Below are positions 15,556-44,332 of a stretch of DNA of 64,000 bases, in pieces. The translations under genes were made by a program, and so were the position numbers. The stretch comes from Mesostigma viride (taxonomy: Eukaryota; Streptophyta; Mesostigmatophyceae; Mesostigmatales; Mesostigmataceae). The notes below the pieces were generated by a model. The model did not search any database, was not told where the DNA came from, and was given only the letters and a program-made list of their open reading frames with translations. How positions within the stretch are numbered: position 1 is the stretch's first letter; the number at the start of each line of letters is the position of its first letter. The stretch covers positions 5,604,461 to 5,668,460 of the forward strand of contig RPFO01000041.1 in the NCBI GenBank assembly GCA_009746045.1, in the 5' to 3' direction.

Positions 15556-15560
15556 GTGAG

Positions 15561-17965: not shown

Positions 17966-17970
17966 GTGAG

Positions 17971-20384: not shown

Positions 20385-21745
20385 TCACACAGAGGAGCTC
20401 ATCAGCTTGTAAAGAAGCTTATATTGCTCAGCAGACTTGTGAGGCAACTTGGTCAAGGCATCAGCAGGATTCTCAGAACCTGGAAGATGTTGAATATCCA
20501 CCAGACCTGCCAACTCCTTCAACAGGAGATAATCCAGATCTCTGCTTCTGGCCAACTGCTTGTGCACAAACTGGACCATGCCCATGTTATCTGAAAGGAT
20601 CAAGGTCTCCAGCTGAAGAGTATGAGGAGTCACTGAAGCCATAGCTAGCAACAGCTCCTTGATGTACAAACTGGACTGAATCCCTTCACAAATGGCTCTG
20701 CACTCAGAGACATCTGAACTCACAGCAACCCTTCTTTGAAGACGACTGTACCAGGCCACAAGACTAGGCCTATGTTGCTGAAGCACAAACAAGCCAGCTG
20801 ACCTGCCTCTGACCTTAGAAACTTGCCTGCTATCCATGGAGCTATCAACATAGATATCCAAGGAAAATGGCAAAGACAAATCAATCCCAGCTAAAGTAAT
20901 ACCAGGAGACTTGTTAACATGTGCAATAATCTGGGAAGGCTCCTCCAGAATTAGCACATCATCAGGGGATCTGCTATGGACCATCATGTCAGGCCCACAA
21001 ATGCTGCCATACCAGGCCAACTTGCCTTTCAGCTCAGGTGCAATGGATGACGTCATGACCTCTGGAACAGATTGAAGAATGGTACTCTTGTAGTCATTGC
21101 CCGCCTGCAGCTTAATCAGCCACTGACTCCCCTCCTGAACCAATGTAGCCTGCATTCCACAGAACGTGACAGCCTCTCCAGGCTTCTGCCACAATTCTTT
21201 TCCCAAAGGAAATGCATCATTAATGATGGGCACAAACTGACTCAACCACTTAGTGGGAGCAATCAAGTGCAAGTCATCACCATGCAGGCTAGCATACACA
21301 GGTAAATCATGCCACCTACCCAGCAATAAACATGGGTCCACAGATGACACCTTCAACCCACAGTGTTTAGTCAAGAAGTCTTCCAGGGTAAGCCTCCAAA
21401 TGATGGGACTGGACCTGAGACCTTCTAGACCCTTCAGAATCAGCAGGTAGCTAGACTGGAGCTCTGCCTGCCAGGCTACAGGAACTGGCACATGAAATGG
21501 AGTTTCACAATGCCACACCTGCTGAGCCACACTGGGATCACCCTTCAGAAATGCTCTCTTGAAATCTAGCAGAACTGAAGACATATCAGCACCCTGGTTC
21601 AGCATACCGACATACAGGCACAATAAAATACGCCATGTATCATGTAGCATCCCAGGTGTATACAACTCCTCGCCCAGAAGATCCCCAGTACCACGGTATT
21701 CATTGAGAACTGGACGCACATGGGGAACAGACACCCCTCCACCTC
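20385..21745 (-). pseudogene. RT and RNase H of an INT-PR-RT-RH retroelement (decayed)
   Basis: The minus-strand frame encodes EELYTPGMLHDTWRILLCLY, then LLDFKRAFLKGD (motif A region), LKGLEGLRSSPIIWR, and YASLHGDDLHLI as the catalytic box, with HGDD where YVDD is usual. The RNase H part has LDIYVDSSMD, SECRAICEGIQSSLYIKELL, LILSDNMGMVQF and ENPADALTKL, which is the Copia-type ribonuclease H signature. The stop is at 20385. A single-base shift near 21745 separates it from the protease and N-terminal RT part upstream. The nearest relative in the window is the pol of the 18.5-kb element. Confidence 0.85.
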
Positions 21746-22666
21746 CTTCCGCTTGATGACGAATCTGAGCTTCAACCGTGTACTGTATGGAGGAACTTCA
21801 TTCACAGGCTGACAGCAGTCAAACTGCAACCACTCCTCTAGGGCCTTGGCAAATGCTAGCCTCCAGGCCTCAAACATCAGAGGAGAACTCATTTCCTGGA
21901 CAAGCTGATCATAGCTAAGAGGAGAATGAGCAGCCAGTGATCTCTTAGTAATACCAATACTGCTAGGATGGAGAGCAGCTGGCATCACAAGACTGGAAGC
22001 CACAGGAATCTGATCCTCAGGCCACTGCACATTCTTGATCGCTTTCACAGAATTAAATACACTGGCAAGGGAGGTTTTAAAATTGACCAAGGGTATGCTA
22101 CCCCAGCCAAACTTTCTCAGCTTATCAGATGCCACAACAATTCTAGGAGAGCTCAGAAAATTTTGACCCAAGATGATAGGGCCATCATAATCTTCAAGCA
22201 CAAGAAATGTGACATTCTCACCCATGAAGGGTACCAGCACCTCTCCCAATACCATAATGTGTGTCCTGCCACTAAAGTCAGACACCCAAGCACAACTAGG
22301 CGAAAGCACCTGCCGTTGACCTGTATGTTGAGATCCCATAACAGAAACCTCAGCATTGGTATCTACCTCTAGGACAGCATCCTCGGACTCCTCCAACTGG
22401 CTGAGCTTGGACACCCGAGGTCCTTGCTTGGCTTTTTGCATAGCCAGCACCACATCTTTCAGGCCCACACCTCTATGCTTAGTGAGGCTAGAGGGGACCA
22501 CATCTGCCTGTCCTAAGGATGGAGAGTTAACCGATCCAGGGGTCTGGCCAGGACTTACCCGGGGATTACTTCCAGCTTGAACGTGATGATCAGGGATGAC
22601 GTCATGACCAACTGGCAAGGTTGTCACATCAGGAGTTACTGCCTCTGCTTCAGCACCCCTTAGACG
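21746..22666 (-). pseudogene. Protease and N-terminal RT part of the same element
   Basis: The frame contains AVLEVDTNAEVSVMG (Asp-Thr-Asn in place of the usual Asp-Thr/Ser-Gly of aspartic proteases), FLVLEDYDGPIILGQNFL (the conserved Ile-Leu-Gly flap/terminal region), and then AHSPLSYDQLVQEM and RLKLRFVIKRKEVEG leading into the polymerase. It continues in frame from the integrase once a 113-bp insertion plus duplication (22667-22779) is removed. The protease therefore sits between integrase and RT. Confidence 0.75.
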
Positions 22667-22793
22667 TACATATGACCACGTAGTATAGAGCTTTGACATG
22701 GCTCTGTATATAGGTTTATAGCTGGGCGTTTGCTTTGGTTTGAGTGATTTCACTCTGCTGTAAGTAATTATATTTTTAATACATATGACCACG
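22667..22793 (+). mobile_element. 99-bp retroposed insertion with 14-bp target duplication
   Basis: TACATATGACCACG occurs at 22667-22680 and again at 22780-22793. The 99 bp between them end in an A/T-rich tail (ATTATATTTTTAA) on the plus strand. Removing the insert and one duplicate restores an uninterrupted integrase-protease frame. The length of the duplication and the tail fit a short or 5'-truncated non-LTR retroposon. Confidence 0.75.
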
Positions 22794-23938
22794 ACAGACG
22801 GTGCACATTCTGGGGAGGATCCTCCATCTTCACCCAGCACTTGTGCCCAGCTAGTTCCACCCTGGTCACTACTCCAGGGTGCCAGCTACCACGCTTGCCT
22901 GCAAGCTTGGGCTCTTTCCACACAATTACCCTCTGGCCAACAACAGGTTTCAGAACACTCCAGCCCTTGTCTTTCTGCCTCAACTTGGCAAACTTGAACA
23001 TAAGGCTATCTTTCCAGGCTTGCTCAACCTCAGTAGGGAGCTCCCGAAGATGCAGTGATAATGGAGTCACAGGGACCTCTCCAACATACATGGATGCCCT
23101 GCCATTTAATCTGTCTTCAACTGACCTCAACCAGGCCGTCTTGATAATAGCTGGAACCAATCTTGGAATCTTCTTCTCCGTCAGTAGAATAGTCTTGAGT
23201 TCTCTGATTGTCCTCTCCACCACTCCTTGACTGCCATGGGACTCCCTGTGTACAACAAATAACTCAGGGAGATCTTCATTCCCCATGCAGCACTCAAATT
23301 CTAAATCACACTGCAGCTGGATCACTGGTTTCATTCTGGATCTGATAGCCTGGAGCCCAGCCACCAAACATGGCTTAGATTTGTCTTGCAACAACTCCAG
23401 CACCTTGTACTTGGTGTATCTGTCAACACCCACCAACAAAATCAGTTTCCTGATTTCTTGGATATCACATTGTACATATCCAGGCTGCAACACAGGTTGT
23501 CTGACATGAGACTTCTTAGGCTTGGGAGCAACCAGCCTACAGGAACAAGCCTCAGCAACCTGCTGCACTACACAGGTGATGTGCTATTATCAGCACTATC
23601 ACTTACAACCATGCTCCCCATTGCATCATTCAGGCCATCAGCCTCATCCTCCTCCTCTATAAAGGAGCCTCCTGCCCTAAGGCAGGACTTCCACGCTCCA
23701 ACATTGAAGGAGTACGCAAACTACCTCCAAGAGCCATGTGGGAACGTTGTTGCCTTGTGGTAACTGCTTTCACCATGGTGACGTGGGAAGACCCAGTCAC
23801 TACCCCATTGTGTTCTTCCTCCATGGATGCACCCTCAACCTGTGCAGGGAGACTCTCAACCTGTGCAGGGAGCAAATCAACTTCATCCAGAGTAATGGGG
23901 GGGTCACTCTTAGCCCCCTCCCTGGCGGACCCTAGCAA
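22783..23938 (-). pseudogene. Integrase of the INT-PR-RT-RH element (decayed)
   Basis: The main frame (to 23568) encodes YVQCDIQEI and LLVGVDRYTKYKVLELL (first catalytic Asp region), LQCDLEFECCMG (second Asp), and ESHGSQGVVERTIRELKTILL (catalytic Glu). A C-terminal basic segment follows with VGQRVIVWKEPKLAGKRGSW and VHRLSWSYV. The 23657-23938 frame upstream appears to be the N-terminal leader in another frame. This integrase and that of the 18.5-kb element share the same unusual D-D-E spacing, with no canonical DNGxEF box. No gag gene is present upstream, so the element is truncated. Confidence 0.75.
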
Positions 23939-25369: not shown

Positions 25370-25781
25370 GAGTTAAAGAAACCTGTGGCTGAACTGTGGT
25401 TCAGCCTGCACTGATTAATACCTACAGAGGAAGTAGTTATATTAATCAATAGGTTTACGTTGCTGGTTATGGCTACCAGCACAGAATGCACGAGGCACGC
25501 GAGAACCGTCGCCAAAGGTGCGAGGACACAGGTGCAGGGAAAGTGGTGCTACCAAGTGGCAGCGTCCTGCTCATTACATACTAATTGTGACGCAGTCACA
25601 TCCAGATGACTGATAGGACAGATCATCTCACAATATTGCTGTCCTTCACTCTGGACCAGCAGATCTCGACTCGTTATCCATAAATAGTCACATCAGTGTC
25701 CTGTCGCACAAGTCCTGTCACTATTTGTTACGTCTAATCAATAGCATTGAATAGACCGCAGTGTCGGAGACTAAATGTCCT
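25370..25781. repeat. Long direct repeat, right copy
   Basis: Partner of 18973-19388. It is immediately followed by another repeat starting TTATGACAC (25782). Confidence 0.6.
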
Positions 25782-25902: not shown

Positions 25903-25920
25903 AAGGGTGGGATGGGTGGG

Positions 25921-26505: not shown

Positions 26506-27509
26506 GATCCACCCCAGTCCCTGGCGCCATTGCCCTCCTCCCCCGCACTGTCGCCGTTCAGGAAACAAAACTTGATAGGATCACTGTTGCCCCAATAACA
26601 GTGAACAAAGAAAAGAAGAAGAATCCCCCCCCTCTTCCAGGCAGCCTCGAGGGTAGCCGCTTCCATAAAAAGACCACAAAGTGGGGCGTGTCGCAACATC
26701 TCCTTCATGGCGACTCAGCCCGCACAAGGCTATAATAACCCCCTAAGGGGCCCGACAATAAAAGGTTAGCGAATCCGTGGAGCCGCCTCAGCAAAATATT
26801 ATTCCAGATAAAAACCCAGAAAATTCGCATTCCGACGCCACCAGGGTTTGAACCGCTACCTGCCGGGTGCTGAGCAGGGAGAGACGACAAGGCCAGGCAC
26901 TGCCACTGCCAGCCGAGACGCCTTTCCGATACTCGGTTCCTTTTGTGGGAATTTTGCAAATATATTTTCGTCCGGAACGCAAGAAATTAGCCGGCCGCGC
27001 GTCACCCTTATATCCCTCGCTGGCCCATAACAAAAAAGGGCCGCGCACCAAGCCGAAGGCAGCGCCATGCAGCGCCCTAGGCTGTGGGCCGCTGACTGAC
27101 TACCAGCGCAGTCTCATGGAATCCAAATTAATCTATTGACCTTCGCACAGTTTCCGCATTAGCTGCGGACTTCTTAGTCGACATGATTGGCTCCGCTGCT
27201 GGAATTACCAGCAGCCGGGGCGGGGCGCCCAGCCCACTTTCTATGACCACCGAGACGCTGCCCAGCAAGGTGCCAACCAGAACCACTTGGCACATTGGTA
27301 ACGCGAAATTTCCGTTCCGTTCAAACCGCCCCTACCTGCCGTGAAGTCGCAAAGCCCGCGACTTCATAGCAGGCAAGGACGGGGTCTTTGCCTAACTTTC
27401 TTTAGCCCCGCCGCCATAGCAGCGAGGCCGCTCATACTGCTTAATTCAGTGAGCACATTCAAAGAAACAATTACGGGTCACAACCCGCCGACCATGCTTA
27501 TCAAGCCTA

Positions 27510-28157
27510 AGTTAGCATTTTGGGCAACCAATATGCTAAGTGGACGCAGTTTGGAAAGACCTTTCCAACGCCGTGCTGACCGCCTGAAACAGACAAGGGA
27601 CAAGAAAGATATGAGGTCCCGAAGTCCTAGCCGTCCGCGGTCAGCAAGGGTGCAACCTTCTGGGGTAGTGGACAGGACACGTGGCAGGCCGTGCCTGCAC
27701 AGGCTTAGCCTGACTATCACGTGACTGTAGTCCACGTAGACCAGGAGGGACAGCAGCCTGCGACTGGTGGGGTACTGGAACCGGCACAAGGCTGCAAGGA
27801 TACTAGGTCTTGCAGGCTTGTGACAGGTCCTGTACTTCCTAGGTTGCAGGTAGCTAGGTAAATCCAGTTCGTCCTGGCTCTGCAAGGATGCCAGTGGACG
27901 TTGAGGATTTGCTAGCAAGCCTGCAACATGCCTCGTCACACCGATGGGAACGAGGAGCAACAAAGAGGCATATAGCTTGGTCATGGGGATGGCCAAGCTA
28001 TCTCGGAAGCACGCGCTCTGGTTGCCCACTTGAACGTGGAAGTGACCAACAAGGTGTGGCTTGGTGTTTGGGCTAAGGATTGCTGTCCCCAGCAATTGGC
28101 TCAAGCGTTGCGTGAAAGGCCAAGAGCTCACACGCTCGGGGCTGGTTTCGTCTAACT
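27510..28157 (+). repeat. Left LTR of the 18.5-kb element
   Basis: 648 bp, begins AGTTAGC and ends TCTAACT, preceded by the GCCTA target duplication. The next bases CGTACTAATGG are the probable primer-binding region. Confidence 0.93.
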
Positions 28158-28184
28158 CGTACTAATGGTTCCGTGGCGCATTTC

Positions 28185-29325
28185 ATGTCGGAAGAAATTC
28201 CGGCGCTTGAGCAATCGCCAAGCCAAGGAGCCGCAGTGCCGCGGCAGGAGGCAGAAGGACCTCTGCATCCATACAGCCAGCCAGAAACCGCGTCCACGTT
28301 TGTACAAGCTGCGCATTTGGCGAGGGGCTTGGCGCGGGGAGGCTGGGTAGCTGTTTTCGGCAACTCGGAAGGGCCGTCTGCCAACGACCCTGTTGTGATG
28401 CGTGTGCGGGCCACGACTTCTCCAGGGGAGACGAGTCGTGTGACGGTGGAGCGCTTGGTTGCGCTGAGAGACGAGGTCGCAGCGCTTATCTACAGCCTTG
28501 AGATCGCCTATCAAGGTGGTCACGTTACGCTGCACGGTTTGGATCTTGCTCGAGAGGCGTTGGGACAGTTAGTCGCCATCAGCCTTGGTGCCACCCGATT
28601 ATTTAACCATTGGGTCGCGACGAGTTCCCTCGGTGAAGGGACGAACGCTTCACATCTCGTGCGTGACGCGCAGGTGCGTGAGCAGGACAGCCCCTGGTCC
28701 TCGCAAGAAGTTGTTGCTCAAACCTGTGAGCACCTTGTTAACATTTTGCTTCAAGAGTCGCGAGGCCACGCAGATCGGTGGCTTATCACCACGCGTCCTG
28801 CCGGCATCTGGTCCACATTAGACACTCCTCGTGTTGTTGGAGCCCCCGGTGCATACGGTCCGTCGGTGGAAATCGTCACAGGTCGGGACCTGTCTCCACA
28901 GGCAGTGCACGACGAGTTCGTCGACCGCCCGTCGGGTGTTATTGCACGCTCGTCCCAGCAGTTGGACGAGGGAGACGGTTCTGCAGCAGGGTTCTCCGAG
29001 CGGCAACGTGCAGATTATCACATCCCGCCGGAGCCGTTGCACGACTACAGCACCTTACGGCCTTGGGGCATACAACGAGCGACGAGGTGGGGGAGGACGC
29101 TGGGTGCGTAACGTGGTGTGGGGCAGGCGCCCTAACGAGAGGCGTGTGCCGTTTGACCAAACCACAGACGGGAGGCCCGTCAGTCGCCTTCTTGGACCTT
29201 ATTCTGAGGAGGAGGTGCGAGCTATTCCTCGGGTGAGGACGCCGGTGGCTGTCACTGCTGAAGAGCGGGAGAGAGAAGCCGCCGCTGAGGCAGAGCGCGA
29301 GGCAGAGGAGCTGCCCGACGCTTGA
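28185..29325 (+). pseudogene. ORF1 protein of the AGTTAGC family, one frameshift
   Basis: The ATG at 28185 follows the left LTR by 28 bp. The predicted protein has the GGWVAVFGN and RATTSPGET segments shared with the copy at 16242, then a helical region (LARGLARGG, LVALRDEVAALIYSLEIAYQG). At about 29070, beside a run of G, the frame shifts. The continuation to 29325 reads YNERRGGGGRWVRNVVWG and ends in an acidic, Glu-rich tail. I know of no family for it. It is separate from Gag, which follows 58 bp later, and may be an accessory or structural protein of the element. Confidence 0.7.
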
Positions 29326-29383
29326 AGTCCTGTCTTCTTTTGCATACCCTTGCGTGTTGCAGTGTCGCTTTGTACATAATATA

Positions 29384-30772
29384 ATGCCTCGTGGGAAGGC
29401 CGGCGACGGCGACAAAGGCGAGGAGGAGAGGCCTGTGGAGACGGGCCAGGTGGTGCGAAAGGAGAAGGAGCCCATGGCGGGGGAAGCGATCCCTGCTAGC
29501 AACGGTGACGGGAGCAAGAGGCCGGGAGGCAAGCGCAAACATGAGGAGGCGATGGAGGAGGCCAAGCGGGCGCGGGCGGAGTGGCCTTCAGATGCTGTGC
29601 TGGTGGCTGGCGGACAACCAACGCTGGAGAAACGTAAGAGGGACTTGTCCTCTGACGATAATGGTAAGCGTCGTCATGTAGACGTGCCCTCCCCCAACCC
29701 TGCTGGCCCAAGTGGTGTCGTAACTGTGACGCCCGCTGTGACTGGTGTCGCTGCTGTGACGCCCCCTGTGGCTGAGACAGTTAGGGCGTTACCGGGGTCG
29801 AGGCCTCACATGAGCGCCGTGTCCGTCATGAATGGCCAAAAGCCTCTCTGTCCACCATTAGCGCAGGAAGCACTAGATAAATGGCTTGAGGACATGGAGC
29901 TGGTGGTGCTCTCTGTGGATCCCACCGTGAATCTGGTGCAAGTCTTTCATTCCTCAACATGCAACCGGGATTCCTCTGAACGTGTGCGTGAGAAGACTAG
30001 GGTGGCTGTGAAGGACAAGCTAACCTGGGCACAGTTCCTGGATGGACTGAGGGAGGAGTTTTCAGACAAGGTTTTGAACCTCACAAACTACTATAAACAC
30101 CAGTATGACACGTTCGAGATCATTGGCCCTGTTGCAGAGGAGTGGGCCAGGCTCAACCGTATCAGAGACAAGGGGGCCAAGTATGGCTTCCTGGTCACAG
30201 ATAGAGCCTTGGCAGACTATTTCCTGGACCGAATGGGGTTGAGTGTGGATGGGAGGAACAGTGCCCGCATGTTTCTGAACCAGACAGATGGGTCCTTGCG
30301 TGCTCTAGAGCTGGTTATCCTTAGTATCAGGAAGCCAGACCCTGCCTGCAAAGCCATTCAGTCCCACGGCAGCAATGCCACCTCCGCTGCACAGGCCCAA
30401 GGTGATGTCCCCGGGTACCCAGCCCGTGGTGGGGCAAGGCCTAACAAGCGTAGGCGCTTCAGGCGCCAGAGGAATGGGGCTCAGGGTGGCAAGGGTGCAG
30501 GTTCCCAAGGAGGGGTTGGGAGCCAGCAAGCTGGTGGTCAGCAGGGCAAGGGTGGCCAAGGGCAAGGCAAGAGCCAAGCTCAAGGCAATCAGGGCAAGCA
30601 GGGTGGGCAGTCTCAGGGAGGCCAGGGGAAGCCTGGCAAGGGTGGGGCTGGGTCTGGAAAGAAGGGTGGAGCATGCTTTGTGTGTGGCAAGGAAGGTCAC
30701 TGGCGTCGTGAGTGCCCTGACAGGAAGGCCAAGCCTGCTGGGCAGGGGGCCAGTCTGGGCAGCAGTGACTAG
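29384..30772 (+). CDS. Gag nucleocapsid protein of the AGTTAGC LTR element
   Basis: The 462-residue frame begins at the ATG in ATAATGCC. An N-terminal basic, low-complexity part (residues 1-110) is followed by a conserved gag region (PLAQEALDKWLEDMELV, TWAQFLDGLREEFSD, NYYKHQYDTFEI, EEWARLNRIRD, LADYFLDRMGL). A Gly/Gln/Lys-rich linker and a single CCHC zinc knuckle (CFVCGKEGHWRRECPD) near the C-terminus complete it. It would form the virus-like particle and bind the element RNA. The gene is intact. Confidence 0.9.
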   Translation: MPRGKAGDGDKGEEERPVETGQVVRKEKEPMAGEAIPASNGDGSKRPGGKRKHEEAMEEAKRARAEWPSDAVLVAGGQPTLEKRKRDLSSDDNGKRRHVDVPSPNPAGPSGVVTVTPAVTGVAAVTPPVAETVRALPGSRPHMSAVSVMNGQKPLCPPLAQEALDKWLEDMELVVLSVDPTVNLVQVFHSSTCNRDSSERVREKTRVAVKDKLTWAQFLDGLREEFSDKVLNLTNYYKHQYDTFEIIGPVAEEWARLNRIRDKGAKYGFLVTDRALADYFLDRMGLSVDGRNSARMFLNQTDGSLRALELVILSIRKPDPACKAIQSHGSNATSAAQAQGDVPGYPARGGARPNKRRRFRRQRNGAQGGKGAGSQGGVGSQQAGGQQGKGGQGQGKSQAQGNQGKQGGQSQGGQGKPGKGGAGSGKKGGACFVCGKEGHWRRECPDRKAKPAGQGASLGSSD

Positions 30773-30907
30773 CTACATCATCCCCTGTAAATAGTCAATC
30801 ACCCCTTGGGGAAGGTGTGCTGGATGTACATAAGGATGGGGGTGTGCCCCTTGTGCAGCACCAAGGGTGTAAGGATGTTGTTCTTCCACTGGATTGCAAT
30901 ATAAACA

Positions 30908-32350
30908 ATGCTGCAGCTGAATTCCCTATGCCTCATGCAGGTGGTGGGTCTCCAGCAGGTGCTGGCCTGGAGGGCCAAAGGACCTTGCTGGAAGGGCCTG
31001 GAGCGGTCCAGGGTGCAGGGCCTGGCTTGGGGCGTCAGGATGACCTGCAGGGAAGCCCTGGAACCTCAGGAGTGGATCAATGATGTGTCCCCACACACGG
31101 TTCAGACGTCTCGCCAGGTCAGTACTGAGAGAGTGCTGAGCTATGCTGAGGCTGGCTATAGGTTACATCACATGTTTGGACATTCTGGGCAGGCAGCAAT
31201 GTTTGCTTGGAAGTTAGGTAGGGAGCCTTTGTGGGAGGCATGCCAGGCTGCTGCTGAGAACTGTGGTTGCCAGGAGAATGCTGTTCACCCACCCCAGTCC
31301 CATGCTAGGGAGCCTGCTAGAGAGCGTGGCGACATCCAGATGGATATCCAGCATATCAGGGGCTTGTATGTATTAGTGGGGGTGGATAGGTTCAGTAGAT
31401 ACAGGCTGATAGACGTTCTTCCTGGTATGCAGGAGCATCACTTGTTGTTGGGTATGAAGGCCCTGATCCCAGGCTTTGGGGTATCCAAGAGTGTGCAGGC
31501 AGACTTGCAGTTTGACTGTTTGCTCAAGCATCAGGACCAGCTGCCTTGTAAGCTGGTAGTAGTCCCCAGGGAGAGTCATGGGCAGCAAGGGGCTGTAGAG
31601 AGATCCATACGTGAAGTGAAGACAGTGGTGCTAGCAGCAGAGTCAGTGCCACTTGTGGCATCTGCCTTAGAGAGGGCAGCCTGGTGTAAGGGGATAGAAG
31701 AACAGCTGAACCACAGGGTTAATTATTACTTTGATGGTGTGGCTGTCTCTCCCCTGGCCCTGCAGTATAGCTTACTACCTGAGAATGTGGTGCAGGCCAG
31801 TCTTAGAAAGGCAGACAGGTTGTTTGCCCAGCTGAGACGTAAGGACAAGAACTGGAATGTGCTGAGGCCTCAGGTGGGGCTGAAGGTCAGGATGTGGAAG
31901 GAACCATCTATACCAGGCAAGCGGGGGAAGTGGCAGGATGGGGTTGTCACTCGTGTGGAAGAAGCTAACAGATCTTGCCTGGTGGCTTTGGAAAAGGATC
32001 CAAGGCACGTGTACAGGTTGTCCTGGGCTCATGTCAAGGAGAGAAGGCCACATGCAATCTGGCCTGCAGACGGGCCAGGCCCTCCCAGTGGGTTGAGGAG
32101 CCAGGCCAGAGCCAGGCAGCAGCAGCTAACAATCCTCTGGTGGTGGATGATGGTCTGTCCCTACTGGAAGATGACGAGCAGGAGGCTGCTGAAGCAACTG
32201 TCACAAGGCCAGAGGGGACGGGGCAGCCACCTAAGGCCCGGGGGCCTCTCATGGCGGACGTCATCCGAGCACTCATGCGCAGCAAACATGATCCCAAGGT
32301 ATCCAAGCTCACGGGGTGGGGGTCGTGCTGGGCAGCTACAATGGAGGTAG
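30908..32350 (+). CDS. Integrase of the AGTTAGC LTR element
   Basis: After the gag stop, pol opens here. It carries an HHCC-like segment (YRLHHMFGHSG ... CGCQ) and IQMDIQHI / VLVGVDRFSRYRLID (first Asp). VQADLQFDCLL holds the second Asp, and ESHGQQGAVERSIREVK the catalytic Glu. A basic C-terminal part follows with VGLKVRMWKEPSIPGKRGKW and HVYRLSWAHV. The C-terminal end of this open frame overlaps the protease-RT frame by about 375 bp, so a frame change near 32040 joins them, either programmed or a single indel. Integrase lies upstream of protease and RT, unlike the Copia order (PR-INT-RT-RH) or Gypsy order (PR-RT-RH-INT). Confidence 0.85.
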   Translation: MLQLNSLCLMQVVGLQQVLAWRAKGPCWKGLERSRVQGLAWGVRMTCREALEPQEWINDVSPHTVQTSRQVSTERVLSYAEAGYRLHHMFGHSGQAAMFAWKLGREPLWEACQAAAENCGCQENAVHPPQSHAREPARERGDIQMDIQHIRGLYVLVGVDRFSRYRLIDVLPGMQEHHLLLGMKALIPGFGVSKSVQADLQFDCLLKHQDQLPCKLVVVPRESHGQQGAVERSIREVKTVVLAAESVPLVASALERAAWCKGIEEQLNHRVNYYFDGVAVSPLALQYSLLPENVVQASLRKADRLFAQLRRKDKNWNVLRPQVGLKVRMWKEPSIPGKRGKWQDGVVTRVEEANRSCLVALEKDPRHVYRLSWAHVKERRPHAIWPADGPGPPSGLRSQARARQQQLTILWWWMMVCPYWKMTSRRLLKQLSQGQRGRGSHLRPGGLSWRTSSEHSCAANMIPRYPSSRGGGRAGQLQWR

Positions 32351-33362: not shown

Positions 33363-34185
33363 ATCCATTTCTGGCCTTGCCTTGCTTTGCATGCATCACC
33401 ACAAAACATCAAATTTATTACAATATGTGTGCTAGCTCTATACGGTGGAATAACACAGACATGTCTACCAGATGGCAACACGGCCATCTGTATGCTAGGG
33501 TGAGCACACTATGTGAATGTGCAGGGCCAGCCCACAGCAGCTGTGCCCCTGCTCTACCCCTTTTGCCAGGGTGGGTGGGTGGGAGGCAAAAGAAACAACC
33601 TGCTTCCCTAGAATGGAAGCCCACCCTTTATAGCAACCACCTCTCCAGCCAACCCCTACCTGGGTGGCTGGGGTACGGGTGCCAGCACAAAAAATATTTT
33701 TTCTAAAATTATTTTTTCCTTTGGTGCTATACGGCGTTGCATTCTCCGCTCAGCAGGTTAGTCATAGATAAAATGAGCATAGCTCACCAAATCCATTTCT
33801 GGCCTTGCCTTGCTTTGCATGCATCACCACAAAACATCAAATTTATTACAATATGTGTGCTAGCTCTATACGGTGGAATAACACAGACATGTCTACCAGA
33901 TGGCAACACGGCCATCTGTATGCTAGGGTGAGCACACTATGTGAATGTGCAGGGCCAGCCCACAGCAGCTGTGCCCCTACTCTACCCACATCTCCTTACA
34001 TGGCTAACAGCCGAAAAATACGTAGGACATGCAAAAAAAGAAAACTTAAAACTACCTAGCTATGGGGGTACTTTGTCCCAACCCAGGTTCACCCTCGGGT
34101 TAGTTAAACCATTTCCCCCCTGACCTCCCACACAAGGGTGAGGTCAGTTGATAGCTAAAAGACGAGAGATAAAAACAGGAGGACG

Positions 34186-35097
34186 TCAAAACACGACGCC
34201 ACCGAAGTGGCGCCGGAACGCCGCTGGGTCAAAACCCAGGGCCTGAGCCCAGAGGGCGGGTGGGATGTCGCGCCCCAGGAGGCTGCGGTGGAGGCCAATG
34301 TAGCGCGTGACCGAGAGGGCCGAAGCCCACCGGCCGCGCAGCTGGATGGCCTCCGGCGACTCGCCAGCGATGGCGTCGTGCGTCGCCCCCCCATGCCGGA
34401 GGCTGTGAAAAGAAAACATCCCTGGGATGCCCATGCGGGCCTGCACAGCCTCCCACTGCTGCCTAGCCTGGCTGTACGTTAAGCCCCGAAAGAGGAGTGC
34501 CTCCGGGGGCTGGCCAGCCGTCAGACGTCGCAGGAGCCACAAAGAAAGTGGATCCCGGACGAGGACGTGCTGGGCCGCCCCCTGCGCAGTTTTGGGGTTG
34601 CGCAGCACAAGGGCACCGACCATGGGCCCTGGCTCGAGAAGGGGGTGGCCGGGATGAGCCACATCCCGAACCCGCAGCCCTAGCGCCTCGCTAATGCGTA
34701 AATACTGCTGGAAAGCAATAATAATCAACGCACTCAAGTGCACCTGTCGACGTGAAACTAGCAACAGGGCAGTGAAATAGCAAAGGCGCCAGGGCATAGG
34801 CGGAGGGCTGACAGCCGGAACAAGCCGCTGCCAACCTGCTAGCAGGCGGTCCGCCAGTACCCAATTCCGAACAATGTCGGGGTAGTACAGGTGGAGACAG
34901 GCCTTGGCATGCTGGCATAAGGTACGCCCCCGCCCGCCCCTGGCATGGTAGACAGCAGAAATCCACTCACAGAAAATGGCTTCCGCGTCAGCTGGGTCGA
35001 CAGGGCCAGGTGGCGCCCACGCCACGTAGACAGCCGCCGCACGCCGGTACGCTGGCAAGGTAGACACAGGGTTGACTGTGCCTTCCAAAAGTGCCAA
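34186..35097 (-). CDS. Tyrosine recombinase of the PAT/DIRS element
   Basis: The 303-residue open part has the catalytic set of tyrosine recombinases: Arg134 in YLRISEALGLRVRD, His231-x-x-Arg234 in HSLRHGGATH, Trp257 in LRGRW (His/Trp position) and the nucleophile Tyr266 in TRYI. The enzyme would recombine the circular cDNA with the chromosome through its joined ends. It lies beside the B2 A2 B1 repeats as in other PAT elements. There is no ATG near the start, and the frame is open up to the Copia LTR at 35136, so the true N-terminus probably lay upstream of the Copia insertion. Confidence 0.88.
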   Translation of the reverse strand: MALLEGTVNPVSTLPAYRRAAAVYVAWAPPGPVDPADAEAIFCEWISAVYHARGGRGRTLCQHAKACLHLYYPDIVRNWVLADRLLAGWQRLVPAVSPPPMPWRLCYFTALLLVSRRQVHLSALIIIAFQQYLRISEALGLRVRDVAHPGHPLLEPGPMVGALVLRNPKTAQGAAQHVLVRDPLSLWLLRRLTAGQPPEALLFRGLTYSQARQQWEAVQARMGIPGMFSFHSLRHGGATHDAIAGESPEAIQLRGRWASALSVTRYIGLHRSLLGRDIPPALWAQALGFDPAAFRRHFGGVVF

Positions 35098-35135
35098 GTC
35101 CCGAGGGCGTCGCGCCCCCTCAGGCCCAGGGTTGG

Positions 35136-35567
35136 TGTTAGGAGTGAGAAAACAATGTTTGCCACAAAGTTTTACTTTATTTCACTCAGATAAAAATAAG
35201 TCTCAGTCGGCAGCTGGCCGGCTGCTAGTTCCACCACAGGAGTGTGTGAGGTGTGAGGTACTAAGAGAGCAAACAAGGTGCGTAGCTTCGCCTTTTAAAC
35301 AATTCCAGGCTCAGCTACTGGGTAGCAGTTATGATCTACCTACAACGTGGCCACACCAAACCGGTTCTTTTCTGACTGTGTGGCAGTTACAATCATAACG
35401 TGATCTCAAGCCAACCATTCACAACCAAAGTTCAAGGTCAGTCACAGAATGACTGGGTCACTTATGGAACAGAACTTAAACATGCGGCACATGCCCGTTC
35501 ATGTAGTCCAGAGCTAGCACTAAACTATAAGTACTAGTTTCAGGCAGGTGTGTCGATACTTCTGACA
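35136..35567 (-). repeat. 3' LTR of the nested Copia element
   Basis: On the minus strand it starts TGTCAGAAGTATCGACAC right after a polypurine run (GTAAGGGGGG) and ends CTCACTCCTAACA. The plus-strand bases just outside are GTTGG (35131-35135). No second LTR copy was found. Confidence 0.78.
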
Positions 35568-35708
35568 CCCCCCTTACTCGGCACACAGGCCGGAAAACAA
35601 ACTCAAGCAAGCCAGAACAAATGTTCACTAAAAGAACTGTAGTATGGGACCAGTGTCACAGGCTAGCAAGTGTGTCCTTATGTTGTCTCATCACTAATTG
35701 CCAGTAAC

Positions 35709-38700
35709 TCAAATACCCAACAACTTGTGTCTGAGCTCCACAAAACGTGGCTCAGGTAGTGCCTTGGTGAGCATGTCGGCGATCATCGCTGCCCCAGGAA
35801 GGTGAGACACCTGAACGGTGCCATCCGCGACCTTCGCGCGAATGTAGTGGTACTTGACGTCGATGTGCTTGGTACGCCGAGGGTGAACAGGGTCTCGTGA
35901 CAGAGCCACAGCACCAGTGTTGTCGCAAAACACCTGAATTGGCCCTGAGGCCGGGTCACCCAACTCCTTGGTGATGGTGAGAAGGGGACCACCTGCTGCG
36001 TGACACCGCACAGGGCCATGTACTCGGCCTCACAGGTGGACAGGGCTGGAGTGGGCTGCTTGCGACTGGTCCACTCCACCGCAGCACCGCGGTACATGAC
36101 CACGTTGCCAGTGATTGACTTGCGGTCCACAGGATCGTTTGCCCAGTCGGCATCCGAGTAGGCCACCAGCCCCCCCTGCCCCGAGTAGGACAGACCCAGG
36201 TCCTTGGTGTGTACCGCGTACTGAAGCACCCGGCGTGCCAGCCCAAGGTCGCTTACAGTAGGGTTTTTCATATTCTGAGTCAGCAGGTTGACTGCGAATG
36301 CCAGGTCAGGCCGAGTGCATCCCATCGCATACAGGAGTGCCCCGGTGATCGCTTGGTAGACGCGAGTGTCGTCCGCGTTGAGAAGCCCCCCCTCACCACG
36401 GGGGGTGTTGGGGACGACGGGCGTCTTCACCGCCCGTGGGGAGACCCCAAAGCGCTCAGCGAGGGCCTCCAGATACGGGCCTTGGTGCAGAAAAACTGTG
36501 CGCGCCGGCGGGTCGAGGACCAGGGAGACCCCCAGAAAGAGGGAGGGGGCATCCGTCTCGGTGATCTGGAAGCGCTGGGACACCCGTTGGGTCCACTGCG
36601 ATAGCCACTCCGCCGAGGAGTGGGAGACCAGGAGATCGTCGACATGGACGAAGGCAAAACCACCAACATACAGGAACAGACACGTGTCCGTGGTGCTCTG
36701 GACAGCGCCAGTCTCATGGATGAGGTAGTCCCGGAGCGTGTGGTGCCAGTTCCGGGGCGCCTGTTTGAGCCCATAGAGGCTCCGCCGGAGGCGCCAGAGG
36801 TACGTTTGGCCAGTGGGGTCGCGCTCCTCAAAGCCCTTGGGGGGAAGGACATACACGTCCTCCTCCAACTCAGCATAGAGGAACGCGGTGCGGACATCCA
36901 GCTGCCGGATGGGGTGGCCAGCAGTGCCAGCACGAGCCAAGCCCAGGCGCACGGTGGCAGCACGGACGGTGGGAGCAAAAGTCTCACCGAAATCAATGCC
37001 CTCGCGCTGTGCAAACCCCTTGCACACAAACCGGGCCTTGCACCGCCCATCAGCTTTCTGGGCGAAGACCCACTTGGTGGGTAGGAGCTTGGCACCGCGC
37101 GGAAGATCACGCATATGCAGAAGCTCGTAAACCTGGTGCTCCTGGAGGCTGGCCAGCTCACTCTCCATGGCCGTGCGCCATTCCGGCAAGGCAAGGGCGG
37201 CAGCGGGAGAGGAGGGCACGGACGCAGGCTGGCTATGAAAAGCAGCAGCGAAGCACAGGTCAGCGACAAGTGAGTGATGCGCGTGGATCCGTGCAGCCTT
37301 GGTGACAGGTTGATCCGGCCAGGAAGAAAGTGCGTCATCCAATACATCATCGCCCCCGAAACCAGGGGGAGCGGGGGTGTTACTGCCATGAGAAAGGTCG
37401 CCACACAAGGCAGCACCACGGGAACCCCACACGGGGAGGAGACCTGCAGAGGCACCAGGGGACGCCGGAGGAGAATAGCCGGTGCTGTCAGCCGTGCTCT
37501 CCAGGTCAACCGAGGTACTCAAATGCGGCGGAGGCATCCCCGCCCCGGCGTGTTCATATGACGCCGCAGAACGCGAGTGGCCAGAGGCCTGTCCGCGCAA
37601 CAGAGGGGCATGCTGTCGAGCATCTGACACGGTGAGGTAAGATGTCGGCGCCGAGGCAGGAGCCGGAGCCGTCGGAGCAGGGCCGTTCCGCACAAGTGCC
37701 TGGATGGCCGCAGCGGCGGCCGGGGGGAGAACGAAACGCTCAGGAGTCCCCCCGATGCTGACATAGCTGTCCTCACGGCCTGCGGGCAAGGCAGTGGAGG
37801 GCGTTGCCGGCCCCCCAGAGTCCTCGGCAGAGGCAGAGGGTAACTGCAAAGGGGCAGGAGTCAGCATGTCGGCGGGAAAGAGGTCGGCCTCCGCAAAGGG
37901 GGCCGCCGGGAGCCACTGCGCAGCCTGCGGGGCCCGGTTGCGCCACGTCTCGTCGAACTGCACGTGCTTGCGCTCGATGACACGCCCGCCGCCCGTCGCC
38001 TTGTCGGGCACCCATACGAGGTAGGCCGGGGAGTCAAGCTTGTATCCCACGAAGAGGCCATCCTCAGCGCGAGAATCAAACTTCTCACGGGCTGCCCCCT
38101 CAACCAAGACGTGGGAGGGGCAGCCAAACACACGCATGCCGGATAAATCCGCAGGGCGCCCATACATGAGGAAGTAGGGCGTTGCGTGCTCCGGGTTGCT
38201 GCGGCAGGGCAGCCTGTTGATGATGTAGATGGCGCATGCAAAGGCTAGAGCCCAGAACTCCTTGCCGAGGCCAGCATGCGCCAGCATGCTCCTGGTCATG
38301 CTAACTGCGACGCCCCAGAATCGCTCCGCCACGCCGTTCTGCTCCGGCGTATAGGGGGACGAGAACTCTTGCCGCACGCCATACTCGGCGCAGACGGCGC
38401 GCCAGTCCTGGCCAGTGAAAACCGCGTCTTGGTCGGAGCGAAGCTCCACAGGCGCCGTGGCCGCGGACGCCCGGAACGGCTTGATCTCCGTGGCCAGGAA
38501 GTGACGCAGGCTCCCAACGGCAGCGTCCTTCGTCTTCAAGAAGTAAACCCAGTGAAAACGAGTGGCTTCATCCGTGATGCCCAGGACATACCGCCAGTCC
38601 CCCAACACGGCAGGGGTCCGCATGGGACCTAGCAGGTCGCAGTGCAGGCGATGGCGAGGGGTCGCGCAGCGTGGCGTCGTGCTGGGGGGAAAGCTGCTCC

Positions 38701-39484
38701 GCCGCAAGTGACCGGCAGGGCAGGAAGGACACGTGGGAGCCTTGGGACCGTGGGTCACCATGTTTGAGGCGGGGTCGGCGGCTAGCCGAGCAATACGATC
38801 CGCGCCAGCGTGTCCGAGGCGCAGGTGCCACTGCATCAGGTCCACGGGGGCGGCTGATGTGGCGAGGGCATGGGGCGCCACCCCGCGGAGCAAGTAAATG
38901 CCGTCACACTCCACGAGGGGGAACGTGCGGGTCCCCAAAGTGAGGCGCAGGTGCTTAAAGTCCACATCATGGCCGGCTTTAAAGAGCTGGCTCACCGAGA
39001 GTAGGCGGGCCTGAAGGCCTGGGACATACAAAGCTGGGCCGAGGTGCACGTCCGGGGTGCCGAGCCGGAGAAGCAGAGGGCCCCTGCCGCCCGCATGCAG
39101 ATTGCCGCCCGAGCCGGTGATGCGCAGCCGGAAGGCGGGATCAAATCCATCGCCAAAGTCCGCCCGGTGAGGCGTCATGTGGTACGTGGCACCCGTGTCA
39201 ACCACCCACTCCGGGGCACACCTAGCCGAGGCCGTTGCGGCCGTGTGAAGCACAGAAGGAGCGGTGGTTGAGGAACCAGCCGTCGAGTCCGAGGAGGTGC
39301 TGGGGCGGGGTGCCGAGAGACGACTGCCCGAGCGGGACGGGGAAGGCGCAAGGCCGTGCACTGGACGAAGCGAGGCCTGCCCGTGAGGCTGCACACCGTC
39401 GCGCAGGGAAGCACCTAAAGGGTTGGCGCGCAGGGAAGCACACAAAGGGCCTCGACCCACGTGGAACGCGTACGTCGTCTCCAA
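35709..39484 (-). pseudogene. Copia-type pol polyprotein (PR-INT-RT-RH), one frameshift
   Basis: The minus-strand frame from 39484 has protease WVVDTGATYHMT, then GAG-pre-integrase WHLRLGHAGADRIA and integrase with RLHCDLLGPM, LRSDQDAVFTG and SPYTPEQNGVAERF. RT follows with DVRTAFLYAELEEDVYV, LRRSLYGLKQAPRNW and FVHVDDLLVSHSS. RNase H has AYSDADWANDPVDRKSITG and LSTCEAEYMALC. At about 35996 the frame shifts, and the last 95 residues (FCDNTGAVALSRDP, RRTKHIDVKYHYIR, MLTKAL) continue to 35709. Domain order is standard Copia. A CCHC knuckle (CSVCAKPGHDAATC) lies just upstream of 39484 in the same frame, so a second shift separates it from gag. Confidence 0.92.
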
Positions 39485-39744
39485 GGGAGGCAGGCCTGCG
39501 TCGGTGTGATGGGCGTGCCCGGCGCCGTCACCGCGGAGGTGAGCAGGGCGCTGGGCGGGATGGGCAGTCCAGCAGGTGGCGGCGTCATGTCCAGGCTTGG
39601 CGCAGACGGAGCAGGGCGGCCCGCGACCACGCCCGACCCCTGCGCCACCACCGCGACCACCACCGCGCCCGCCGCGCCCCCCGCTGCTGCCGCCATGGCT
39701 GGGCCGTTGCCGTGGCCATTGCCGTGGGCGCGGCCGTTGCCATG

Positions 39745-39786
<42 letters not shown>

Positions 39787-40827
39787 TCCGTTGCCGGTGC
39801 CGTTGCTGCTGCCGTTGCCGTTGCCGTTTCCGTTGCTGCTGCCGTTGCCGTTGCCGCGGGCACCGCCATGCCGTGGGCCACGCCCCCGGCCAGGGGTATG
39901 GTATGCGTGGTTGGAGGCAGAGCCAGAATCTGCAGGGGACGGGAGGCCACCCGTCAGCAGATCTTCAACTTCCATCAGGCGCTGCCGCAGGACCGGAACA
40001 GTCTCGACCTCGTCAAGACGGAGGGAGATTAGCGCGGGCCTGTACTCGGCGCGCAGACCGCTGAGGACGCTGGCAATGAAGGCAGCGACTGGGAACGTAA
40101 TGCCTGCAGCCTGTAGCTTGGCGTACAGCAGTTCCGAGCGGTTCACATACGGCTCCACAGTCTCGCGAGCAGTTTGACGAAGTTGGGCCATTTGTTTCCA
40201 CAAGTCCAGACGCATGGACTTGGTGAGCTTGCCATGCTCATAGACCTGGATGAGCTTGGTGATGGCCAGACTGCCCAGGCGACGATCCAGGGGGAGCGTC
40301 TGCATCAAGGCACGCGCAGGCCCATCGACGACGGCCAACAAGGCAACGTAAAGGAGCCGATCCAGTTGCACGTTCTGGACAACACCTGCCAGCACTCCAA
40401 GGAGGCCAGCATAAAGGGAAACAAGGCCCAAGAAATGGTCCTTAAAAGGGATCCACAGCGTCCAATCTGAGCCGGTAAAAACCTTGACCCCACGAACATC
40501 CTTCAAAAGCTCCTTGCAAGCCACAAAGGAGGCTCGGGCGGGGCCCCCCCCCGCCGTACCGCGGCTCAAACCACCACCGTCAACCGCCGGATTCTTACCG
40601 TCGGGAGCACCGTGGGCGGCGTCCTCGTCACCACCTGGCGGGTGCAAAGCCAGGGCAGCCAGCCCAGCTGCTGCGTCAAAAAATTCTTCGCCTGGGAGAC
40701 CCGAATCGGTAAGAGTTACGGATGATGCAGTCAAAGCGGCCAGACCGGCAGCGTCATCGGCATCAAAATCGTTACTGTCAGCAGCGCGACCCGCGGAAGC
40801 GACCTGGCTGCGAGTGCCGGAAGCCAT
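39415..40827 (-). pseudogene. Copia Gag with Gly-Asn repeats
   Basis: Starts MASGTRSQ at 40827. The region SDWTLWIPFKDHFLGLVSLY to LRQRLMEVEDLL is a typical Copia gag core. A long (Gly-Asn)n run from GCC/GTT repeats at 39710-39860 follows. The open frame then loses the zinc knuckle, which is found in the pol frame near 39590, so a frameshift lies between about 39600 and 39700. The ATG is only about 45 bp from PAT sequence at 40870, leaving no room for a 5' LTR. Confidence 0.82.
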
Positions 40828-40879
40828 TCCAGCAAAAAAAAAGCAAAAAACTCCGGAAAAAAGGGTAACGTTGGCCAAT

Positions 40880-41875
40880 AGATTTCCTCCAGCCTCAGCC
40901 GGACGGTCTCCCCCGCCTCGTTGGCCTCCGCCACCAGGATCAGCGCGGACATGTTGATGCTCAGCCCACGACTAGCTTCCAACGGCGGCTTGGGGCCACA
41001 GCGGTACAACACAGACTGATGCACACACTGGGCCACGGCGACGGCCAGCTTGTTTCCCATTGGCCAGCACAACATCCACGGCCACACCTTCCGACGAGCC
41101 CCACTCAGGCCCACCAGATCCGACCACACCGGCATCCACGCACAGTACCGCCGCATCCAAACTGGCAGGCGGAGTCTGTTGTAGTACGAATCCAAATCTG
41201 ATACGCCCCCAAAAACATCCTCCCCAGCGCGCGTGGGCAAATCGCAAATCACGCCAAGATGTGGTAGAAAAGCGGGCATAGGATCTGGTAGTGGCATGTT
41301 GCCACGCCGGTTGTCCACAATCAGCCGTCGGGCTTTCCGACCCCAAAAGTACCGTTCACCATAGGCGGCTCCTCCTCAAAAAATCCACCCAAAATCCCCC
41401 TCTCCACACACACCGTGCAAACCCGCGCGAACTCCTCCATGCTACACCCCCGCGAGATCCGCATCGTCTTCTGCAAGATCCGCTCTGCTGGGCTCAGCGT
41501 CCGTACCATCCTACTCTCATCATTCAAAATTGCTCCCCAAGAGGGGGGTAGTAAGTTCAGCACATCCACTTGGCCACCTTCCCCCGGACCAGGCAAGGCC
41601 AAGCGTGCGGCCACTAACGGCTCGTAAGGGGCTCCTTCAGCATATTCACCCCCATCCACTACAGATCCTGCCATTGCCGCTACGGAACCACCGTTCCGGC
41701 GGACAAAGGACCTGCAAGCATCATCGATCCCATCTAGGGCCGCCTGCTGCAGAGGCCCGGGCACACGGCCGGGCTGATCGAATCTACAGCAGGCGGGTCT
41801 CGCCCCCCCCCCCATCCAGTTTAACGCCCTAACCGTCTGACAGGCTAGTGTGCGAGCATTAAAAGCCCGACTCAT
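40880..41875 (-). pseudogene. DIRS/PAT reverse transcriptase, 5' half only
   Basis: Two frames joined by a one-base shift near 41335 encode an N-terminal part (QKTMRISRGCSMEEFA), then FGVGKPDG followed by RLIVDNRRGN, GGVSDLDSYYNRLRLP (motif A with Asp) and CWPMGNKLAVAVAQCVHQ (motif B-like). The frame ends at EEIYWP, where the Copia element begins. The YxDD motif and RNase H that should follow are not found on the other side. Insertion was accompanied or followed by a deletion. Confidence 0.75.
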
Positions 41876-41971
41876 CCTATCGCGCCTACGGCCTGAGCGT
41901 ACCTGCTGCCACCAGTCACGACTCAGGTGGCAGGGGTGCTGGAAGAGGTAGTGGAAGAAGGCACCGCTCCC

Positions 41972-43078
41972 TCACTTGTTGTTGTTGGACGGGCCGCCCT
42001 GCCCCTTCTTGCCGGGACCCTGCTCCAGCTTGTGCTGCAGCTTCCCCATGCTCATCGCCGCCCGCACCGCCGGAGACGCCAGCATTGCTCCACCCTCCTG
42101 GAATGGCAGCATTGCCGACGGAGTCCCCTTCCAACCCGTCGACCCCACATCCACCAGCTGGCATGCCGTGATCAGCTTTGCCAGGTACTCGGCTGCTGCC
42201 AGCTCCAGAATTACTTCGGAGCGTGGCGTGGCCCAGTAGCCAAATTCTGTCACCATCGTGTCCAGAATTCCTGCCATCTGCAGGAGCAGCATCCTCCTCT
42301 CCCCGCTGGCTGAGCTGCCGTGCATCGTCAGCATTAACGATGCACGGATTGACTTCCCCCCCACGCTCTCTGCGTAGTCCAGCATCCCCGGCAGCACCGC
42401 CTCCAGCATGTTGCTCACCAGGACCGGCACTGCATGCCCGCTCAGCGCCACCCCCTTCGTGCGCGCCAGCCTGCCAGCAGTCGCCGCTGCGGCTGGGCTT
42501 GCAGTTGCTGGAGTCTTTGCCTGGTCCAGCAGCTTCGACATGGCCGATATCAGGTCGCCAATATCTCCGCCAGTGCGGGCGTTGCCCGGGCGGGATGGAA
42601 GCCCTCCCGCTGGCGTTGCATAGCCCGTCTCGGTGCCCAGCAGCCGACCTATGTTCCGGTCTAGGTCCGCCACATCCTGGTCGATCGCCCCAGGGGCGCC
42701 ATCCTCCTCGCCAGCGCCCGGTCCACCATGCCCCGCCCCTCCGCCTCCACCTGCCGAAGGGGGAACACCCCCAGCTCCCACCCCACCTGCTGACACTGGT
42801 GGATCCGGCTCTGCAATAGCCTCCCCCAGTTGCGCTGCTAGCACATCGGCCAGGGCCTCCTCCCCATCCCAGTCGCTGACAAACCCCCTTTTCTCCAACA
42901 CGTCCATGACGTTCTTGGCACGCCCCGGATTGAGCTTCTGGATCCGCTCTAGCCAATGCCCCTCCCCTAGGATCTTCTGGACCGCAGTTGCGGCCTCCTA
43001 TGGGGTGCATCCCTCCCTGGCTTCTTGCTTGAGCTTTGCTATGAAATTCCGCTCTGGGGCTGTCACTGAGGTCATGGT
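41972..43078 (-). pseudogene. PAT/DIRS Gag, one in-frame amber stop
   Basis: From the ATG at about 43078 (MTSVTAPERNF) the frame is open except for one TAG near 43000 between REGCTP and EAATAVQKIL. It continues as a 311-codon frame with DVLEKRGFVSDWDGEEALAD, a Gly-rich linker, and a helical core (LVSNMLEAVLPGMLDYAESV, RMLLLQMAGILDTMVTEFGY, SEVILELAAAEYLAKLI). Position (first gene after repeat A1) and composition fit the DIRS Gag. No zinc knuckle is present. Confidence 0.7.
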
Positions 43079-43350
43079 GGGTTATAATGCTTGATGTGTT
43101 ATATTGCGTTTTGTTTTTTGTGATGTGGTCACTTGAGGTTCTCAGGCAAAAGAAACAACCTGCTTCCCTAGAATGGAAGCCCACCCTTTATAGCAACCAC
43201 CTCTCCAGCCAACCCCTACCTGGGTGGCTGGGGTACGGGTGCCAGCACAAAAAATATTTTTTCTAAAATTATTTTTTCCTTTGGTGCTATACGGCGTTGC
43301 ATTCTCCGCTCAGCAGGTTAGTCATAGATAAAATGAGCATAGCTCACCAA

Positions 43351-44332
43351 TTTTTCTCTGTCTCCAGTGGATCCCTGTTTGTTCCAAGGGTCCCACAATG
43401 GCCTTCCTGTCTTTGCCTCACTGCATGGTGATGACCTGCATCTTATAGGTCCACCAGACTGGGTTGAGGCTGTTTTGGCCAAGATCCAGAAGCGGTTTGA
43501 GCTGGGTAAGATACAGCACATGGTGGAGAATGAGCCTATGGTCTTCTGTGGCATGCAGGCTACGTTGTTCCAAGCCAAGGGCTCGTGGTTCATCAGGATG
43601 GAGGGTGGTAAGGACTACCCACAGCAGATTGTAGATGCATTGCAGGAGCCCATCACGCAGGCTAGGTGTGCTACCATCAGGGGCATGCTGGCATGGCTTG
43701 CAAGTATATGTGCCCCTGACCTGCTGGTTTTGAGTCGGCTCACTGATTCCCAGCTGGTTGAGGTGGGGGCTGAGAGTGTGGTGCAGGCTGTCATGATGTC
43801 TCCCCCTCTTATACTGGGTCCTGTGGATTTGTACAAGCCCCTTGACATGATCCTTTATGTTGACAGTTCTATGGACAATAGGAAGGTCACAGAAGTCAGG
43901 GGCAGGGCAGCAGCAATAGTCACCCTGGAGCAAGATCACACCTCACTTGTTACCTGGTACAGTCGGTTGCAAAACAGGGTTACACCCAGCAGTGATATTG
44001 CTGAGTGCAGGGCAATCTGTGAAGGGCTGCATACTGCTCTTTACTTGAGGGAGCTCTTCTACCAGCTATGTCAAGTGGCTTCCTGTAGGTTGCAGCTGCA
44101 CACACTGGTGAGGACTGATAGCATGGGCATGGTGCAGTTTGTGCACAGGCAGCTAGCCAGGAGCAGGGACCTTGACTACTTGTTGCTCAAGGAGATGTCC
44201 TACCTAGCTCACATTGAACATGTGCCTGGTGTGGATAACCCTGCAGATGCCCTCACCAAGCTGGAGGAGAAGGCGGAGCGGCAGTACCCCCTGCTCCGTG
44301 GGCTCATGGACCCCTTGCACGGGCGGCCATAG
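43351..44332 (+). pseudogene. RT catalytic part and RNase H of the AGTTAGC LTR element
   Basis: Resumes in phase after the PAT element: SPVDPCLFQGSHNGLPVFAS then LHGDDLHLIGPP, the catalytic box with HGDD instead of YVDD. RNase H follows with MILYVDSSMDNRKVTEVRG, AECRAICEGLHTALYLRELF, VRTDSMGMVQFVHRQL and DNPADALTKL, and the stop is at 44330-44332. It would copy the element RNA and remove the template. This part is intact by itself. Confidence 0.9.

Follow-up and report, generated by a model that had tools for sequence, protein, structure and literature searches.

Long terminal repeat (LTR) retroelements are divided into superfamilies mainly by the order of the domains in pol. In Ty1/copia elements (Pseudoviridae), the protease (PR) precedes the integrase (INT), followed by the reverse transcriptase (RT) and RNase H (RH), and the usual RT box is YVDD. 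Ty3/gypsy elements are arranged as PR-RT-RH-INT and include a gmr1-like group with the integrase before the RT. Here we describe two LTR retroelements, E1 and E2, of Mesostigma viride, which stands near the base of the streptophytes. They lie in a stretch of 64,000 nucleotides (nt) of contig RPFO01000041.1 (assembly GCA_009746045.1, positions 5,604,461 to 5,668,460 of the forward strand), hereafter the window, to which all coordinates refer. We put at slightly above three in four the probability that E1 and E2 represent an LTR retrotransposon lineage whose RT-RNase H relates it to Ty1/copia and whose pol order is (gag)-INT-PR-RT-RH.

In REXdb, elements from 56 Viridiplantae species were classed as either GAG-PROT-INT-RT-RH or GAG-PROT-RT-RH-INT, and the main text of that survey does not name Mesostigma (PMC6317226). 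LTR retroelements are the largest repeat class in Mesostigma (27.9%; PMC6947507), and a Mesostigma genome paper gives the total repeat content (PMC7027972); the words Copia and Gypsy do not occur in the main text of either. A Symbiodinium DNMT paper (PMC5890265) concerns other elements. The order INT-PR-RT-RH was not met in a limited literature search of titles and abstract beginnings, from which we do not claim its absence from print.

Domain order in E1 and E2

The order INT, retropepsin-like segment, RT, and RNase H was found in both copies with readable INT and PR (2 of 2). In E2 (27510-45986, plus strand), the INT open reading frame (ORF; 30908-32350) carries a zinc region of the HH/CC type (HH at 31166, cysteine cluster at 31241-31270), a D-D-E core (blocks from 31340, 31496, and 31583), and a Tudor/Agenet-like C-terminal domain. 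The next ORF (31975-33435) contains both the retropepsin-like protease (32326-32625), with EVDTN (32341-32364) and GPAILGQN (32530-32553, the block reading GPAILGQNF), and the RT fingers with motif A (33148). The RT is interrupted by a nested insertion of about 10 kb (at about 33363-43350), downstream of which the RT palm and RNase H follow at 43367-44332, with LHGDD at 43421 and NPADALTK at 44237. Upstream of INT lie a first gag-region ORF of 312 amino acids (28173-29111), for which a Pfam search gave no match, and a gag ORF (29354-30772) with a CCHC zinc knuckle (30674-30715; zf-CCHC, E 4.5e-6).

In E1 (about 18.97-25.78 kb, minus strand), the same four domains lie between the LTRs: the integrase core with its D-D-E residues and C-terminal domain (22768-23568), an ORF with PR and the RT start (21599-22840), and an ORF with RT and RNase H (20385-21734). 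The protease (22088-22387) has EVDTN at 22349-22372 and GPIILGQN at 22160-22183 (block GPIILGQNF), and the RT and RNase H have motif A at 21546-21572, LHGDDLHLI at 21261-21287, and NPADALTK at 20448-20471. By eye, the integrase zinc region of E1 is without His residues, and a CCHC pattern search found no match in this element.

The INT ORF shares 376 nt with the PR-RT ORF in E2 (31975-32350) and 73 nt in E1 (22768-22840), so no other element lies between them. Aligned segment by segment, E1 and E2 scored 584 (INT), 271 (PR), 375 (RT fingers), and 817 (RT palm-RH), against shuffle means of 28-36 and a shuffle maximum of 58 (200 shuffles per segment); the respective identities were 44.7, 44.8, 65.7, and 50.6%. 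Third codon positions differed most in all four segments, although only modestly in PR (0.46, 0.34, and 0.56). Reading INT, PR, and RT palm-RH in the two wrong frames lowered the scores to between 46 and 218; five of these six still exceeded their own shuffles because the E1 and E2 DNA is itself similar. The initial annotation had proposed two diverged elements with this order, an LHGDD box, D-T-N in the protease, and NPADALTK at the end of the RNase H. Both elements and all of these motifs were located, and the order was borne out by the overlapping ORFs and the alignment scores, but E1, with LTRs at 18974-19606 and 25371-25781, proved longer than had been noted.

As controls in the same window, an ordinary Copia element within the nested insertion reads PR-INT-RT and a Gypsy-type remnant reads RH, then INT. 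Provided that the PR call is correct, E1 and E2 do not have the Copia order PR-INT-RT-RH; nor do they have the Ty3/gypsy order, INT being upstream in both. The PR frame is offset by -1 from the INT frame in both elements, which suggests a -1 arrangement of PR-RT relative to INT; the offset could as readily stem from indels, within an A-run in E1 and a CAG run in E2, and no standard slippery heptamer was seen in the parts of E1 and E2 inspected by eye.

The Mesostigma viride gene model P0002 (414 amino acids) is 100% identical to E2 over 28% of the PR-RT ORF and continues, nearly identical, into the E2 ORF past the insertion, diverging only near its own C-terminus. P0002 thus spans the insertion site, and therefore both RT halves of E2 are one gene and an insertion-free copy exists.

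Termini and transposition marks

The two LTRs of E2 (27510-28157 and 45339-45986) begin with AGTTAG and end with CTAACT. They are separated by 3 mismatches in 648 base pairs (bp) and are flanked by GCCTA on both sides (27505-27509 and 45987-45991), a 5-bp target-site duplication. A polypurine tract, AAAAGAAGAAAGGGTTGG, read directly in the sequence at 45321-45338, adjoins the 3' LTR. Because of the near-identical LTRs, the duplication, and the polypurine tract, E2 probably moved recently; of its total span of 18.5 kb, approximately 10 kb is the later insertion. A non-autonomous relative of E2 (15561-17965, plus strand) consists of LTRs at 15561-16210 and 17318-17965 (98.3% identical) around an interior of approximately 1.1 kb and has the same LTR ends and polypurine tract as E2. 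Both elements start with AGTTAGC and end with CTAACT, directly abutting their 5-bp duplications (GCCTA in E2, GTGAG in the relative). The interior of the relative contains inverted repeats at 16585-17031, with arms of 71-73 nt that are 96-100% complementary.

The 3' LTR of E1 (18974-19606) starts with AGTTAATATT and ends with TTTAACT, giving the termini AGTTAA...TTTAACT; its 5' LTR (25371-25781) has lost the left part and is 98.1% identical to the 3' copy. The E1 polypurine tract occupies 19607-19626, with a second similar tract, then AGTTAATATGG, just upstream. An LTR start at AGGACATT was considered and rejected, as it is merely the start of the truncated 5' copy; the polypurine tract places the LTR start at AGTTAA. 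All three elements thus have LTR ends AGTTAR...TAACT, not TG...CA, and a purine-rich tract ending in GGGYTGG next to the 3' LTR. These terminal sequences and tracts, absent from the initial annotation, link E1 with E2.

Identity of the domains

The RT box is LHGDD in E1 and E2, and HGDD occurs in all six distinct RTs seen, which are 34-86% identical pairwise. The window ORFs match RVT_2 with E 0.0095 and 0.03. Among five database relatives, P0004, a second Mesvir1 relative (a label that we take to denote Mesostigma viride) with 38% identity, scored 48.0 bits against the RVT_2 cutoff of 31.6, whereas P0003 (30.7), P0001 (21.5), and P0002 (21.3) fell below it and P0005 gave no match. P0003 and P0005, from the jgi and lgn sets, are 62% and 57% identical, respectively. 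The matches to P0002 and P0004 point to Mesostigma viride or a close strain as the host. For RVT_1, no match was listed for any of the five at an E limit of 10, at which the search filters discard most matches above 0.1, whereas four of them match RVT_2. Comparison of the family RT-RH with that of the nested Copia by hhalign gave a probability of 95.7 (E 9.1e-9). By the RVT_2 and hhalign matches, the RT-RNase H of E1 and E2 is Copia-related. The separate clade near Copia that had been proposed stands in its second part, and the separateness is plausible rather than proven since six distinct RTs all carry HGDD. P0001, a Prorocentrum lima record, is 88% identical to the E2 RT, representing either contamination or horizontal transfer.

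The PR segments match gag-asp_proteas (PF13975) at E 0.027 (E2) and 0.19, below the family cutoff, and this was the only match among the likely candidates; in E2 it covers positions 11-90 of 92. The Copia protease family PF22936 gave no match in the PR of either element at an E limit of 10, at which the search filters discard most matches above 0.1, so that a diverged protease could escape; the protease of the nested Copia, as a control, matches PF22936 at E 2.7e-9. When a profile built from both PR segments was run against 916 six-frame open stretches of at least 40 codons, it returned the segments themselves at 272-273 bits and a next best score of 6.5.

For INT, rve was matched at E 0.024 (E2) and 0.21, and the IS481 DDE transposase family at 0.034. 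Against the integrase of the Gypsy-type remnant, hhalign gave E 0.0039 but a low probability (8.7), and of the D-D-E residues only the last two, the second D and the E, were paired. The E2 integrase tail is Tudor/Agenet-like by fold match. Profile searches with RT, INT, and PR thus place the RT in RVT_2, with P0004 above the cutoff, and leave INT and PR with sub-threshold matches only.

Alternative explanations and proposed mechanism

Several results weigh against the proposed order. All PR and INT matches lie below curated cutoffs, and hhalign found nothing between the nested Copia and either the PR or the INT of the family. AlphaFold models built from two sequences each were poor (mean predicted local distance difference test scores, pLDDT, of 37.8 and 42.9), and among 297 Foldseek matches of the PR model at E up to 10, none reached 0.001 or less, a retroviral protease ranking tenth (E 1.2). 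PDB sequence searches with RT, INT, and PR returned no credible relative, in contrast to a search with the nested Copia (12 sequences, each labelled as an integrase or PFV Pol product). Retropepsins usually carry a glycine in the active-site motif; since D-T-N is without it, the E1/E2 protease could be inactive. Only in E1 and E2 were INT and PR seen; the database relatives, five in number, begin after PR and cover RT or RT-RH. Both elements are damaged, with frameshifts or stops in each. No primer-binding site was recognised; in E2, a test of self-priming only gave no match of at least 7 nt. The weak PR profile matches and the poor fold model would suit a Copia element with an ordinary INT-RT in which the linker is merely protease-like and the true upstream PR is lost or too diverged. 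A degraded protease could sit in the 450 nt that separate the end of the CCHC knuckle (30715) from the zinc region of INT (31166), the PR profile misses the protease of the nested Copia and is thus a weak test of this region, and in the nested Copia, too, approximately 275 amino acids link the SH3-like domain to the RT. Against this, the segment equals the integrase in its conservation between E1 and E2, has both retropepsin-like blocks, and in E2 matches nearly the whole Pfam model, and none of the three forward frames from the CCHC knuckle to the INT zinc region of E2 contains a D[TS][GN] motif. We therefore regard a protease-like linker as improbable. Far less probable still is an order produced by local rearrangement or nested insertion in two decaying copies. 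The region is crowded with nested elements and both copies are frameshifted, but E1 and E2 are only 45-66% identical by domain and yet share the order and the overlapping ORFs, and E2 keeps both LTRs and its target duplication. A nested-insertion artefact was rejected, as the ORFs overlap and P0002 crosses the insertion site.

How the order INT-PR-RT-RH arose is a separate matter, compatible with the proposed order. It probably originated by gain of a retropepsin, or its move, downstream of INT together with loss of the usual upstream one. Of the rearranged pol proposed initially, the order stood, whereas the cause may instead be that the Copia-type PR was lost and another retropepsin acquired (weakly matching PF13975, not PF22936). 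A graft of a Ty3-type PR into a Copia-type element, as opposed to a move of the element's own PR, has somewhat less than an even chance: the family matched is gag-asp_proteas, unlike in the nested Copia, and a PR immediately before the RT is the Ty3 arrangement, but the scores are too weak for ancestry and the RT is Copia-type. HGDD may also occur in protist Copia-like proteins. It is unlikely, if less so than the linker explanation, that HGDD with INT-PR-RT-RH has already been described for a Copia lineage of algae or protists, although the HVDD box of the nested Copia differs from HGDD at a single residue and the printed literature was barely checked. There is a real chance that the E1/E2 family is a distinct lineage.

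With the order INT-PR-RT-RH, an RNA running from LTR to LTR would be translated into Gag plus a polyprotein, and the retropepsin between INT and RT would cleave the precursor on both sides, freeing Gag with INT from RT-RH. The RT would copy the RNA, and the D-D-E integrase, recognising AG...CT ends, would insert the cDNA with a 5-bp stagger; its Tudor/Agenet-like tail probably touches chromatin, as do the chromodomains of other integrases. A broader and doubtful proposal is a deep, family-rank lineage in Mesostigma and other aquatic hosts, defined by INT-PR-RT-RH, HGDD, AG...CT ends, and a Tudor-like tail, with INT made together with Gag and PR-RT-RH in the -1 frame. If so, integrase would be supplied at Gag-like, not Pol-like, levels.

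Other elements in the window

Nested elements are piled up in the window, among them E2, E1, the non-autonomous relative, and the Gypsy-type remnant. The insertion that splits the E2 RT (33363-43350, minus strand) lies outside the E1/E2 family. It has split direct repeats (33363-33559 equal to 33791-33987, and 33584-33790 equal to 43144-43350) and a tyrosine recombinase ORF (34186-35097; Phage_integrase, E 4.6e-8), and it encloses an ordinary Copia pol (35783-39484) preceded by a gag-like ORF (39415-40878) with a CCHC at 39572-39613. By eye, the Copia RNase H extends past 35783. A repeat search with 12-bp seeds, reaching down to repeats of 24 bp, found no LTR pair around this Copia; the insertion may be chimeric, part DIRS/Ngaro-like element and part Copia. 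An ORF at 40731-41318 resembles an RT fragment by eye and has no Pfam match.

The Gypsy-type remnant (13482-18672, minus strand) has matches to RNase H (17941-18672, E 9.4e-26) and to rve (13482-14678, E 1.1e-12), and its integrase ends in a C-terminal PHD finger (E 9.2e-10); an H2C2 match (15102-15647, E 0.0039) is weak and below the cutoff. The non-autonomous relative of E2 interrupts this remnant. Positions 1-2629 have long open frames on each strand and a strong GC skew (0.59 in 1-2000), which together suggest a repeat array.

Comparison with known systems

REXdb demanded TG/CA ends and discarded both elements of unexpected order, as likely mispredictions, and elements containing nested insertions (PMC6317226). 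By these end, order, and nesting filters, we infer, a family like E1/E2 would be shut out of REXdb; families filtered out in this way are a blind spot in the reference survey. Tyrosine-recombinase elements of the DIRS type are represented in the window by a recombinase ORF and split direct repeats, but these belong to the insertion nested in E2. A DIRS-type identity was rejected for E1 and E2, as E2 has true LTRs and a target duplication and both carry a D-D-E integrase.

Like E1 and E2, Ty3/gypsy elements have a retropepsin directly before the RT, and the weak gag-asp_proteas match is a further likeness; in E1 and E2, however, the integrase precedes PR and the RT is of the RVT_2, not the RVT_1, type. 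Ty1/copia elements share with E1 and E2 an RVT_2-type RT with a collinear RNase H, a CCHC gag, and a D-D-E integrase before the RT, and with E2 and its non-autonomous relative a 5-bp target duplication. They differ in having PR before rather than after INT and LTR ends TG...CA rather than AG...CT. The nested Copia likewise has HVDD instead of HGDD, an integrase tail of PF25597 instead of a Tudor/Agenet-like one, and a PF22936 protease where E1 and E2 have no such match. We thus set E1 and E2 apart from ordinary Pseudoviridae because their domain order, given the PR call, and their LTR termini are not those of Copia. A recently mobile lineage with a further pol order, other termini, and an altered catalytic box would indicate that such characters can shift independently.

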